Shown piece after piece: positions 18,340-36,171 of a DNA stretch of 36,171 nt (its first letter is position 1; every line of letters starts with the position of its first letter). The notes beneath the pieces are model-generated. The model was not told where the DNA came from. It saw only the letters and a program-made list of their open reading frames with translations, and did not search any database. This DNA is from a virus. The DNA lies in the IMG/VR virus record IMGVR_UViG_3300030116_005228, positions 1-36,171 of that record; one strand, 5' to 3'. The translations under genes were made by a program, and so were the position numbers.

Positions 18340-18570
18340 TTATTTTTGGACTAGCTTAAAGCGTTTTGTCTTCTTTTCATGGTTATTGCCTTCTGGCCTG
18401 ACCTTTCCTCCACAGGTTTCTAGCCATTGAAAGAACGCTTTGGATGGAATTACCCAGCGATGACCCATGCGAATAGAAGGGATTTCTCCCCGTTCACAAG
18501 CCTTATAAGTTTGATTAATTCCAAGTGACAGAATTTTGGAGACTTCCTTAACCTGCAAAGTTGCCTTCAT
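18340..18570 (-). CDS. Excisionase/MerR-type helix-turn-helix DNA-binding protein
   Basis: A 76-residue protein with the layout of the excisionase-type HTH_17 family: VKEVSKILSLGINQTYKACERGEIPSIRMGHRW is a helix, turn and recognition helix followed by a wing, then PSKAFFQWLE. The basic C-terminal tail (KKTKRFKLVQK) could add DNA contacts. With no integrase in view, a role as a transcription regulator or DNA architectural protein is more likely than excision. GAGGAAACG precedes the ATG. Its stop codon touches that of the nuclease gene with no intervening base. A possible promoter (GGACAA at 18649-18654 with CATATA at 18627-18632, read on the minus strand) lies just downstream of the previous unit's terminator. 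Confidence 0.82.
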   Translation of the reverse strand: MKATLQVKEVSKILSLGINQTYKACERGEIPSIRMGHRWVIPSKAFFQWLETCGGKVRPEGNNHEKKTKRFKLVQK

Positions 18571-27673: not shown

Positions 27674-27775
27674 ATGTTTGATTGCTCGGAAGCAGAGTTG
27701 ATTGCAGTGATGATTTTTTTTCTGATTGTGATACAGTTTTGTGAAGTTATGATTAGGAGATGTGATGAATCGTAA
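27674..27775 (+). CDS. 33-residue single-pass membrane peptide (putative)
   Basis: The ORF starts MFDCSEAELIAVM and ends MIRRCDES, with a continuous hydrophobic stretch LIAVMIFFLIVIQF (residues 9-22) flanked by acidic residues before and Arg residues after, a convincing transmembrane helix with a positive-inside C-terminus. An AGG sits 8 nt before the ATG and the stop overlaps the next gene by 11 nt. The stretch would otherwise be a 94-bp gap inside a tightly packed operon. Function is unknown. Confidence 0.45.
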   Translation: MFDCSEAELIAVMIFFLIVIQFCEVMIRRCDES

Positions 27776-28007
27776 AAGAATTCCACAACTCGTTCCTCCA
27801 CGAGAAATAAAAATCAGACCAAAAAAAGATCGAGCCGAGCTTGAAGCAGAGGTCGCAGAGTTTTTGAAAAATGGTGGCAAGATTGATTACGTCACGGACT
27901 CTTCCCGGAACAAGGGGGCAAGCATCAAGTTTACACTGGGGGTGAAGAATGTTCCTGTCTATGAAAACAAAGGAACTATCATCAGATACCGTGATGTCAA
28001 AAAGTAA
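27765..28007 (+). CDS. Small unknown protein, basic N-terminus
   Basis: The start is the ATG at 27765 with AGGAG five bases upstream. The 80-residue product begins MNRKRIPQLVPPREIKIRPKK, followed by a helix (RAELEAEVAEFLKNGGKI) and a short beta C-terminal part. The helix followed by NGGKI is common in small phage proteins with DNA-binding or regulatory roles, but I cannot assign a family. It overlaps the next gene by 14 nt if that starts at 27994. Confidence 0.7.
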   Translation: MNRKRIPQLVPPREIKIRPKKDRAELEAEVAEFLKNGGKIDYVTDSSRNKGASIKFTLGVKNVPVYENKGTIIRYRDVKK

Positions 28008-28482
28008 TTCTCCTCCTACTGAACTGGGAACTTCAGAGATCCATTCTCAACATAAGATCATGGTCGAGGGCGGCCCGGTACCCAGAGCTCGTGTACTTGA
28101 CCAGACAATGATTGATTCAATGTTAATGTCCGAGGACCGTTCCAGAGCCATTACACTGGCTCAACATCAGGCAGGCGAGTTTCTTTTAGCCCAAGCTTCT
28201 GCCGCAGGGATATATTGTGCGACCTCAAAGATGGATGGTATGCCGACAGGAGGGCCGAAAAAAACTTTTGTCCCCACGGGAATATTTCCTATGGGTAAGA
28301 CGTTAAAGTTAGTAGAAAAAGAATGCTCAGAATTTCATGCTTTCATTGTTCAGGAAGTAGTGTGTTTTAACCGGGATATCCGAGATGATCTGGACCAGAT
28401 GAAGGTGTTACGAGAAGCGTTGGATTGTATTTCAAATAGAAGAATGGCGGGAGGAATGAACCCCACTCGCCATATTGACTGA
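27994..28482 (+). CDS. Unknown phage protein, last gene of plus recombination block
   Basis: The start is uncertain: ATG 27994 (MSKSNSPPTELG) is preferred because upstream codons overlap the previous gene, but no good ribosome site is visible; 27961 is an alternative. The roughly 162-residue product contains a helical segment (DQTMIDSMLMSEDRSRAITLAQHQAGEFLLAQA) and near the end FNRDIRDDLDQMKVLREALDCISNRR. Helical composition and operon-end position resemble late regulators or recombination accessories in other phages, yet no motif confirms this. It ends at the convergent structured region 28481-28583. Confidence 0.65.
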   Translation: MSKSNSPPTELGTSEIHSQHKIMVEGGPVPRARVLDQTMIDSMLMSEDRSRAITLAQHQAGEFLLAQASAAGIYCATSKMDGMPTGGPKKTFVPTGIFPMGKTLKLVEKECSEFHAFIVQEVVCFNRDIRDDLDQMKVLREALDCISNRRMAGGMNPTRHID

Positions 28483-33830: not shown

Positions 33831-33993
33831 CCTTTATAACGAGTGGGTTTCAAGATCATTACAAAATGGTTTTTGCGAGACAGGAGAAAAAATCCGGTCT
33901 CAACCGGGTGGACCCCGGCAGCACCACGCGAACTTGCAAAATGACCCAATCGCACTACCTTATATAGAAGAATAAAATGTGTAGGTGAATGGA

Positions 33994-34506
33994 ATGGCAG
34001 AGAAGAAAAAAGAATTGACCAGTAAGCAGTTGGCATTCGCAAAATGCGTGGCGAAATCGCCAGAGAATAAAAGCTTGGCAGATTGCTATAGAGAGGTCTA
34101 CGACTGTTCCCCATCAGCGAGTAGTCAAAGCATCAGAACATCAGCGTCAAGGTTGATGAAGAACCCCCACGTTGCAGATACAGTAACTCGCATAAGAGCC
34201 AAGTTGGAGGACGGATTACTTGCCTCCTCCCTCTCGTCCAGAACCAAAATCCTGAAGGTGCTAGAAGATACAATTGATGGGAAGCTTTCCAAAGACCCTA
34301 ACGAAATGGATTCAGTGAGACTAAAGGCAGTCGAACTCCTCGGACGTAATTTACAAATGTGGGGATCGGATACCACTGTGAACGTAGTAGAACGAGATAG
34401 TGAGACCCTGAGAGAAGAACTGACTGAAAAGCTTGGGAAAGTTCTTGGAGTTGTTCGCAAAGAGTCTGAGACAGAGCCAGAACCAGTAGATCAGACCAAG
34501 CACTGA
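33994..34506 (+). CDS. terS: Terminase small subunit
   Basis: The start is the ATG at 33994 with AGG eight bases upstream; an earlier GTG at 33985 is less likely. The 170-residue protein begins AEKKKELTSKQLAFAKCVA, then LADCYREVYDCS, SIRTSASRLMKNPHVADTV and RIRAKLEDG, the helix-turn-helix layout of phage small terminases that recognise the packaging site. A C-terminal acidic tail follows a helical oligomerisation part (LTEKLGKVLGVV). Large and small subunits together start DNA packaging. Unusually, the large subunit gene does not follow directly but begins 616 bp later. Confidence 0.85.
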   Translation: MAEKKKELTSKQLAFAKCVAKSPENKSLADCYREVYDCSPSASSQSIRTSASRLMKNPHVADTVTRIRAKLEDGLLASSLSSRTKILKVLEDTIDGKLSKDPNEMDSVRLKAVELLGRNLQMWGSDTTVNVVERDSETLREELTEKLGKVLGVVRKESETEPEPVDQTKH

Positions 34507-34781
34507 CTTCACGTAGGGTATCAGGAGTATGGCGTATCTCCTTGATTCCCCTAATGATAGTATGCCCACCCCATTCTTTTTTTCCGAGCTCCGACCCATA
34601 ACAGGCCCCCAGCCCCCCTCGAGCGACAGGCGCATGTAATTCTATATATATACTATTCCAGACATACGATTTCCTGAAAACACCGGGTACCCCCTTTAAT
34701 TTCCCATTATGACTTTATGACACAGCTTCCGGGTAAAATTTACCAGATCGGGGTTAAGGTTCCCCTGAAGGGGGGGTATAG

Positions 34782-34797
34782 TGTAGCGGTTGTAGCG
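34782..34797 (+). repeat. TGTAGCG pair, left arm of a long inverted repeat
   Basis: Two TGTAGCG heptamers start 9 bp apart (34782 and 34791). The inverted partner pair lies at 35072-35087, so the two 16-bp blocks match at 14 of 16 positions in inverse orientation and bracket the palindromes between them. Confidence 0.8.
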
Positions 34798-34844: not shown

Positions 34845-34872
34845 TTGACATCCTGTCAACCCCCCCTAATAT
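34845..34872 (+). promoter_or_regulatory. Plus-strand promoter with palindromic -35, probable terL promoter
   Basis: A perfect TTGACA (34845-34850) is followed after 16 bp by TAATAT (34867-34872, 4 of 6). The -35 is the left arm of TTGACATCCTGTCAA (34845-34859), a 15-bp dyad that could be an operator. A G7 run (34814-34820) and a C7 run (34860-34866) flank the dyad and could pair. Confidence 0.5.
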
Positions 34873-34915
34873 GCTAAAATTAATGCAATGTCTTATGGAA
34901 TCGATATATTCTGTA

Positions 34916-34930
34916 TCGAATAATATTCGA
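34916..34930. repeat. 15-bp palindrome TCGAATAATATTCGA, copy 1
   Basis: Seven-bp arms around one central base. Identical to copies at 34999 and 35033. This copy is further flanked by ATCGAT sequences on both sides, extending the symmetry imperfectly. Confidence 0.9.
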
Positions 34931-34955
34931 CATCGATAACATTCCATACGAGTAT

Positions 34956-34988
34956 ATTCTTATTTTTTTTTAATAAAAAAATATGAAT
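34956..34988. repeat. AT-rich imperfect palindrome
   Basis: ATTC-T-TATTTTTTT pairs with AAAAAAATA-T-GAAT around a 5-nt loop, giving 13 bp with one mismatch. Lying between copies 1 and 2 of the 15-bp palindrome, it is a candidate DNA unwinding element. Confidence 0.7.
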
Positions 34989-34998
34989 TATATTTCAA

Positions 34999-35013
34999 TC
35001 GAATAATATTCGA
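34999..35013. repeat. 15-bp palindrome TCGAATAATATTCGA, copy 2
   Basis: Identical to copies 1 and 3; with flanking A and T the symmetry extends to 17 bp. Starts 83 bp after copy 1 and 34 bp before copy 3. Confidence 0.9.
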
Positions 35014-35032
35014 TAACGATATATAATCTAAA

Positions 35033-35047
35033 TCGAATAATATTCGA
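35033..35047. repeat. 15-bp palindrome TCGAATAATATTCGA, copy 3
   Basis: Identical to copies 1 and 2 and, like copy 2, extended to 17 bp by flanking A and T. It ends 25 bp before the right-hand heptamer pair. Confidence 0.9.
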
Positions 35048-35071
35048 TATGAGTGGTAGTCTTTTTTTTGC

Positions 35072-35087
35072 CGCTACATGCGCTACA
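35072..35087 (-). repeat. TGTAGCG pair, right arm of a long inverted repeat
   Basis: CGCTACA at 35072 and 35081, again 9 bp apart, are the reverse complement of the left pair at 34782-34797. A degenerate third unit (CGCAACAAG) continues the 9-bp period to 35098. Confidence 0.8.
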
Positions 35088-35100
35088 TACGCAACAAGCA

Positions 35101-35116
35101 TGTTTCACATGGAACA
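35101..35116. promoter_or_regulatory. parS-like 16-bp near-palindrome before terL
   Basis: TGTTTCACATGGAACA matches the bacterial ParB-binding site TGTTTCACGTGAAACA at 14 of 16 positions. It lies directly upstream of terL and contributes the GGAA that would serve as its ribosome site. Binding by a host ParB is an inference only. Confidence 0.45.
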
Positions 35117-35122
35117 TTTATT

Positions 35123-36171
35123 TTGAAAATAGATTCTGAAACCTTGGCGAAGGTGCGTGATTTACCTGTTGCCGAGCAAGAAGAGATATTAAAGCTTCTG
35201 GAAGATATAGATGAGGCTGAAAAGAAGGAAGCTGCCCAGTCCGGGTTTATTCCTTTTGCCAAGTATATGTGGCCCGCTTTTATTGAAGGCAGGCATCACA
35301 AGATCATGGCGGAAGCCTTTGAGAAGATAGCGCGGGGCGAACTGAAGCGGTTAATAGTGAATATGCCGCCTCGTCATACCAAGTCCGAGTTTGCATCTTT
35401 TTTACTCCCGGCTTGGTTTCTGGGCCAGTACCCGGACAAGAAGGTTATCCAGACTGCCCATACCGCTGAATTATCTGTTGGTTTTGGAAGAAAGGTCCGT
35501 AACCTAGTCGCTAGTGATGATTTCAAGAAGGTTTTCCCTAACCTTGCGTTGAGGGCGGATTCAAAGGCCGCAGGACGCTGGAGTACCAGCGCAGGGGGAG
35601 AATACTTCGCTATCGGGGTTGGCGGGGCAGTGACTGGTAAAGGTGCTGACCTGTTGATTATTGATGACCCTCATAGTGAACAGGAAGGACAGAGTATCGA
35701 CCCGGCTGTATTTGACCGCACCTATGACTGGTACACCTCTGGTCCTCGACAGAGATTACAGCCCGGTGGGGCGATTGTTATTGTAATGACCCGGTGGCAC
35801 ATGCGTGACCTTACGGGCAAGATTATCAAGTCTTCCACCCAGAGACAGGGAACTGATGAGTGGGAGGTAATAGAATTTCCGGCAATCATGCCATCAGGGA
35901 ATGCCCTGTGGCCTGAATTCTGGAGTCTCGCGGAACTAACCGCGCTTCAATCTGAACTGCCTGCTTCCAAATGGAATGCACAGTATCAGCAAAATCCGAC
36001 CTCCGAGGGAGGCGCACTGGTAAAGAAAGAATGGTGGAAGATATGGGAATATGACAATCCCCCGCCATGTGATTTTGTCATACAGTCTTGGGACACAGCG
36101 TTTCTCAAGACACAACGGGCAGATTACTCTGCTTGCACAACATGGGGGGTATTTTACCACCCCGATGACGA
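35123..36171 (+). CDS. terL: Terminase large subunit, 3' end missing
   Basis: The frame is open to the right edge (350 residues visible). It holds Walker A MPPRHTKSE (residues 81-89), Walker B LLIIDDPH (177-184, D181 and D182) and the start of the nuclease domain with QSWDTAF (D324). WPAFIEGRHHKIMAEAFEKI near residue 50 is typical of this terminase family. The N-terminal helix IDSETLAKVRDLPVAEQEEI fits a start at the TTG at 35123, eight bases after GGAA; no in-frame ATG occurs before 35267, which would cut into the ATPase domain. The enzyme translocates and cuts concatemeric DNA at the portal. The 616-bp gap to terS and the TTG start suggest separately controlled, moderate expression. Confidence 0.93.
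   Translation, partial: MKIDSETLAKVRDLPVAEQEEILKLLEDIDEAEKKEAAQSGFIPFAKYMWPAFIEGRHHKIMAEAFEKIARGELKRLIVNMPPRHTKSEFASFLLPAWFLGQYPDKKVIQTAHTAELSVGFGRKVRNLVASDDFKKVFPNLALRADSKAAGRWSTSAGGEYFAIGVGGAVTGKGADLLIIDDPHSEQEGQSIDPAVFDRTYDWYTSGPRQRLQPGGAIVIVMTRWHMRDLTGKIIKSSTQRQGTDEWEVIEFPAIMPSGNALWPEFWSLAELTALQSELPASKWNAQYQQNPTSEGGALVKKEWWKIWEYDNPPPCDFVIQSWDTAFLKTQRADYSACTTWGVFYHPDD

Follow-up and report, generated by a model that had tools for sequence, protein, structure and literature searches.

The Q protein of phage lambda is encoded by the last gene of the early operon. KorA-type operators are palindromic and are bound by HTH dimers, and the R sites of lambda cosB, which are bound by gpNu1, lie near the terminase genes, with one of them set apart by a bendable spacer. 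The AlpA protein binds to an element between the -35 and the -10 box, and the polymerase then passes a terminator located downstream (PMC9371919). GafZ, described as a GTA antiterminator with a sigma-like HTH, has only one target promoter, where it binds a near-perfect palindrome (PMC11150451).

We analyzed an array of palindromes in a stretch of viral DNA of 36,171 nucleotides (the window, which means this whole stretch). The array is located between the terS and terL genes and next to a late-promoter-like element (Table 1). With a probability of about 0.58, we consider the palindromes to be the binding sites of a regulator that is encoded by the phage, acts as a dimer and controls the late operon, of which terL is the first gene. 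The product of gene X is, with a lower probability, the likeliest binder and would act either in an antiterminator-like manner or as a repressor.

The locus resembles Q21 and the Q-binding element in its promoter-like element 5' of the late genes, in the repeated element near the predicted start site and in a candidate regulator, X, encoded at the end of the early operon; the predicted fold of X also shows a weak similarity to Q21. The elements of Q and AlpA are, however, embedded in the promoter, whereas 2 to 7 copies are found here downstream of the start and around a hairpin. Like GafZ/GafA, the locus has a near-perfect palindrome as the single genomic target at the promoter of a head gene cluster, with antitermination as a possible function, and X is similar to DUF6456 phage proteins at the level of the fold. 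Unlike this locus, GafZ has only one ZBE, placed between -10 and -35; in addition, X has no sequence match to DUF6456, and neither a GafY-like partner nor an IHF site was identified here. AlpA of Pseudomonas aeruginosa gave a weak fold match to X (Z 4.9), and the promoter at which it acts is followed by a terminator, but its ABE measures 6 bp and is occupied by a single AlpA molecule. With lambda cosB the locus shares repeated sites near the terminase genes, one of them apart from the others; here, in contrast, the identity of the TerS HTH does not follow the palindrome. KorA has palindromic operators and is also a weak fold match to X, but here the target is a single operon, the sequence is lineage-specific and several sites are present in the leader.

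Repeated dyad sites with helical spacing and a promoter-like element alongside were found, as in an operator array. In most leaders the palindromes start 10-21 bp 3' of the -10 box and not between -35 and -10. Hairpins are present in the leaders, with T-runs only in some of them. Because the array is placed downstream of the start site, we do not claim membership in the Q/AlpA/GafZ family. The individual parts are of known kinds, and the papers searched did not describe the combination of a fixed layout, lineage-specific palindromes and two groups of sites around a hairpin.

Palindromes in the window and in relatives

The palindromes sit between terS and terL, in a non-coding gap of 570 bp. 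As determined by exact match over the window, TCGAATAATATTCGA occurs three times (34916-34930, 34999-35013 and 35033-35047), with start-to-start distances of 83 and 34 bp. The palindrome measures 15 bp, with two arms of 7 bp each and an unpaired A in the center, and copies 2 and 3 widen to the 17-bp form ATCGAATAATATTCGAT. No further copies were present in the 36,171-base record when up to 2 or up to 3 mismatches were allowed. Both statements of an earlier sequence-only reading, three perfect copies within 132 bp at these spacings and no other copy in the window, were thus borne out. That reading had also named many scattered copies as the finding that would speak against it, and the motif was confined to the terS-terL gap in the window. 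The triple occurrence of TCGAATAATATTCGA is far above chance expectation: among 2000 Markov-shuffled versions of the gap, none contained any 15-bp palindrome even twice.

Table 1. Features of the terS-terL region and gene X in the window.
Feature	Coordinates	Strand	Basis
terS, terminase small subunit	33985..34506	+	phrog_51, E 2.1e-10
terL, terminase large subunit, runs off window; start uncertain (35078-35125)	35078..36171	+	phrog_38, E 9.7e-83
Late-promoter-like element CTGTCA, 16 bp, TAAAAT directly preceded by TG	34853..34880	+	sequence match; recurs in lineage
Hairpin with A/T-only stem, between clusters	34950..34995	+	RNA fold -9.9 kcal/mol, z -2.7
Divergent copy (10/30 mismatches) of conserved terS-terL core element TATACATAGTAAAACGCTCAAACGATTACC	34645..34674	+	
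Palindrome copy 1, TCGAATAATATTCGA, upstream cluster	34916..34930	.	exact match
Palindrome copy 2, 17-bp form ATCGAATAATATTCGAT, downstream cluster	34998..35014	.	exact match and extension
Palindrome copy 3, 17-bp form, downstream cluster	35032..35048	.	exact match and extension
Weak copy, +16 bp from copy 1, 8/14 positions	34932..34946	.	
Weak copy, -16 bp from copy 2, 9/14 positions	34983..34997	.	
Weak copy at the midpoint of copies 2 and 3 (17 bp to either), 8/14 positions	35016..35030	.	
Gene X, proposed array-binding protein (start 27949 or 27994)	27994..28479	+	single copy in relatives; predicted fold

Three weaker copies, which agree at 8-9 of 14 positions, keep the register of the exact copies, at distances of about 16-17 bp from them. 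Since these lie beside the exact copies, the window probably holds about six sites in steps of 16-17 bp, arranged in two groups. The tandem sites fall in a stretch with 21% G+C. The region of the promoter-like element and the palindromes is bordered on both sides by doubled GTAGCG motifs in inverted orientation (34782-34797 and 35072-35087; 16 nt, 88% complementary).

The window represents an incomplete genome, as the structural module of about 20 kb, which reaches in relatives from terL to the first gene of the window, is missing. The whole genome therefore probably comprises about 55-60 kb, and the absence of extra copies is valid for the window and not for the whole genome. Across IMG/VR, 50 other stretches contain the exact 15-mer, each of them once, and the same search did not find a second TCGAATAATATTCGA array.

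Relatives were collected by means of TerL (80 loci) and of the conserved 30-bp gap element (56 contigs, many of them new). The exact consensus of this core gave no match, and its degenerate form led to the 56 contigs. A search with the TerS protein confirmed no relatives because TerS is too divergent. The isolates with the nearest TerL (HTVC027P, HTVC023P, DSL-LC04 and 023Pt_psg01) have no core element and were left out of the comparison.

The common order of the gap is C-run, 30-bp element, A/T tract, promoter-like element, palindromes, hairpin, palindromes and terL. The 30-bp element, which is non-coding and similar to TATACATAGTAAAACGCTCAAACGATTACC, follows the C-run about 300-480 bp 5' of terL in most relatives. 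The promoter-like element consists of YTGTCA, 14-17 bp and then a -10-like hexamer. By sequence match only, such a sigma-70-like element facing terL was present in 68 of 107 leaders, compared to 0.7% of shuffles. In most leaders the first palindrome begins 10-21 bp past the -10 box, the distance between the two groups is mostly about 54-98 bp, and the second group usually lies directly 5' of terL. As seen in alignments, the position of the hairpin between the clusters is kept in relatives, but the hairpin itself differs. When a gene is inserted 5' of terL, the array remains with the promoter (L061, L065, L109); in L061 and L065 the inserted gene lies between array and terL.

A de novo search revealed a significant repeated palindrome (cut-off of at most 3 in 100 shuffles) in 57 of 83 distinct leaders. 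The remaining 26 had no significant array by this strict test, and several of them carry visibly degenerate versions. The sequence of the palindrome differs from lineage to lineage, with about 15 families, among them TAAATANTATTTA, AGGTAATTACCT, GATAGCTATC, GAGAACGTTCTC, AAGGGTNACCCTT, GGAATATTCC, AGTAGNCTACT and TAGTAANTTACTA. The central base of TAAATANTATTTA varies in relatives and can be A, C, G or T. Among the neighbor spacings below 45 bp, 68 of 78 were 14-18 bp, which corresponds to about 1.5 helical turns; one relative (L056) has seven copies, six of them at steps of exactly 16 bp. In the long relatives that were scanned, the motif was nearly confined to the terS-terL gap. Judged by these comparisons of leaders, the palindrome array is a lineage-wide module. 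The dyad symmetry, the free central base and the spacing of 14-18 bp lend good support to the part of the sequence-only reading that had one dimeric protein acting at repeated sites; the HTH protein that it offered as a candidate found no support (see below).

Gene X and the late operon

Gene X stands last in the early operon. A single copy was found in 16 of 28 relatives; the others are mostly fragments. It was not detected in L113 and L120 (60 and 43 kb), though L113 has an array. In relatives it overlaps or abuts the primase-helicase gene; in the window it is not beside the primase and is adjoined by a SutA-like gene for an RNA-polymerase-binding protein. This small gene (27762-28004; SutA RNA-polymerase-binding domain PF20661, E 3.5e-8) lies directly 5' of gene X, and a homolog is present in L055 (E 2.6e-10).

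Pairs of X proteins with at least 53% identity belong to genomes with the same palindrome family, and all pairs with 52.8% identity or less belong to different families. The separation of palindrome classes reached an AUC of 1.0 for X, compared to 0.997-0.999 for the primase-helicase, TerS and TerL. As these linked genes separate the classes nearly as well, the covariation of X and palindrome sequences appears consistent with binding but is not diagnostic.

Two AlphaFold models of X (pLDDT 71.6) gave weak alignments to PDB structures, the best of which were the AlpA-loading complex (Z 4.9), Q21 (Z 3.7-4.8) and sigma region 4 (Z up to 5.1). KorA was also among these weak alignments (Z 2.9-3.5). 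When compared to viral models, the matches of X included DUF6456 proteins with a probability of 0.99. Sequence profiles linking X to Q21, AlpA or DUF6456 were not found: Pfam PF20057 (DUF6456) did not match any of 17 X homologs up to E 10, although the control, gp38 of RDJL Phi 1, matched PF20057, and the profile of X against a DUF6456 protein was not significant. X had no match among annotated phages or PDB sequences. We concluded that X is the best candidate for binding the array, the link being one of association only. From the sequence comparisons and the models, actual binding of X to the palindromes of this window is suggested tentatively.

For the proposed regulator of the late operon, we envisage that a sigma-70-type promoter at 34853-34880 fires toward terL. 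The array would then lie within the leader at the 5' end of the late transcript, its first site falling in the first few dozen transcribed bases, followed by the leader hairpin and by the second group of sites, which would reach toward the terL start. Dimers bound 14-18 bp apart would point to roughly opposite sides of the helix, and the two groups may be bridged. X may load onto RNA polymerase in the promoter-proximal region, so that terminators are passed, as is the case for Q, AlpA and GafZ. It may equally be a repressor that restrains a strong promoter at an early stage of infection; neither antitermination nor repression is favoured by the data.

We regard it as rather doubtful that the locus represents an undescribed type of late control in marine tailed phages, in which a Q-like antiterminator X would use 2-7 palindromes that extend from the transcription start and flank a hairpin, with a specificity changing between lineages and a layout that is kept. 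If true, about 15 palindrome families at one genomic position and one conserved candidate gene per genome would provide naturally diversified regulator-site pairs, and late-gene control in an uncultured marine phage lineage would be open to direct testing. It would also mean that a regulatory layout can outlast the replacement of its recognition sequence, and the change of the palindrome would be distinct from packaging specificity, which appears to evolve by TerS HTH swaps.

The neighborhood of X and primase-helicase in relatives also fits a different and improbable reading, by which the palindromes are iterons of a replication origin for a phage initiator, possibly X, with opening via transcription from the promoter. 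The tandem sites in a stretch of low G+C content would agree with this, and so would their lineage-specific sequence, as with Rep-iteron pairs. A DNA polymerase gene was not noticed in the window; the phage therefore probably uses host replication proteins, which would be in line with an origin of this kind. The tight, conserved distance to a promoter directed toward terL and the hairpin between the clusters argue against it, however, as does X itself, for which Pfam gave no initiator domain and which lies apart from the primase in the window. Pfam did not find an initiator domain among the early genes of the relatives either.

Packaging, other binders and RNA pairing

The TerS protein was initially favoured as the binder for its location and divergence, and was then rejected on account of natural HTH swaps. 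By this reading the palindromes would be recognized by TerS as part of a cos or pac region, much like the R sites of lambda cosB. They do lie between terS and terL and share the gap with the conserved 30-bp element and the C-run, and TerS is strongly divergent (21-36% identity in most pairs) compared to TerL (72-100%). In four pairs of relatives (L105/L106, L098/L111, L100/L101 and L069/L072), however, the TerS HTH regions have only 43-76% identity, whereas the leaders are 96-100% identical and carry the same palindromes. For the first three pairs, nucleotide identity drops to 48-76% where the HTH is encoded, compared to 94-100% for the final 250 bases of the leader; for L069/L072, identity was 43% for the HTH and 96% for the leader. 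The reverse was seen for L089 and L105, which have the HTH in common (82%) but differ in the palindrome. Contig ends were scattered and did not pile up at the terS-terL gap. Since HTH swaps leave the palindromes identical, and the reverse also occurs, these comparisons make it unlikely that the TerS HTH reads the palindromes, and a packaging function of the array is quite improbable.

Within pairs such as L105/L106, L098/L111 and L100/L101, whose genomes are otherwise nearly identical, the part of terS that encodes the HTH, in its N-terminal portion, has been exchanged as a cassette. On the basis of these replacements, the sequences suggest diversifying packaging specificity, with a pac site inside or near terS.

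Another regulator, such as the HTH_17 protein (18340-18570), the SutA-like protein or a host factor, is very unlikely to be the owner of these operators. HTH_17 is a genuine DNA-binding domain (E 2.8e-9), and the sequence-only reading had proposed this protein, as an excisionase-type HTH, for the role of binder. It was not retained: no homolog was found in 11 relatives that carry such leaders (several being fragments), and no similar family was found among the early genes of the relatives. A host factor fits poorly to palindromes that differ between close phage relatives.

Pairing of upstream and downstream palindromes in the leader RNA, which would control termination or translation of terL, is highly improbable: although self-complementary copies flank the hairpin on both sides, the last copies can abut the terL start and the hairpin stems vary with compensating changes between relatives, odd-length palindromes are common and their free central base would mismatch (A-A, C-C), L056 keeps its exact 16-bp steps, the array stays with the promoter where a gene parts it from terL, and Rfam gave no match.

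A parS-like site and hints to the host

A parS-like palindrome, TGTTTCACATGGAACA, is located at 35101-35116 of the window. A site with at most one mismatch to TGTTYCACRTGRAACA was found exactly once in 13 of 16 relatives, the other three being short fragments, and a reversed control pattern of TGTTYCACRTGRAACA gave zero matches in the relatives checked. The position of the site differs between genomes. L058, L059 and G019 have TGTTCCACGTGGAACA, which resembles canonical bacterial parS. Going by this resemblance, the site may capture host ParB. The papers searched contained nothing relevant about parS sites of lytic phages or about terS-terL leaders of this kind.

Two relatives by TerL (L166 and L167, with 79% and 77% identity) are on contigs binned into two MAGs of Poseidoniales/Euryarchaeota, and no integrated prophage was recognized in them. 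This archaeal binning contrasts with the bacterial-looking promoter and the parS-like site.
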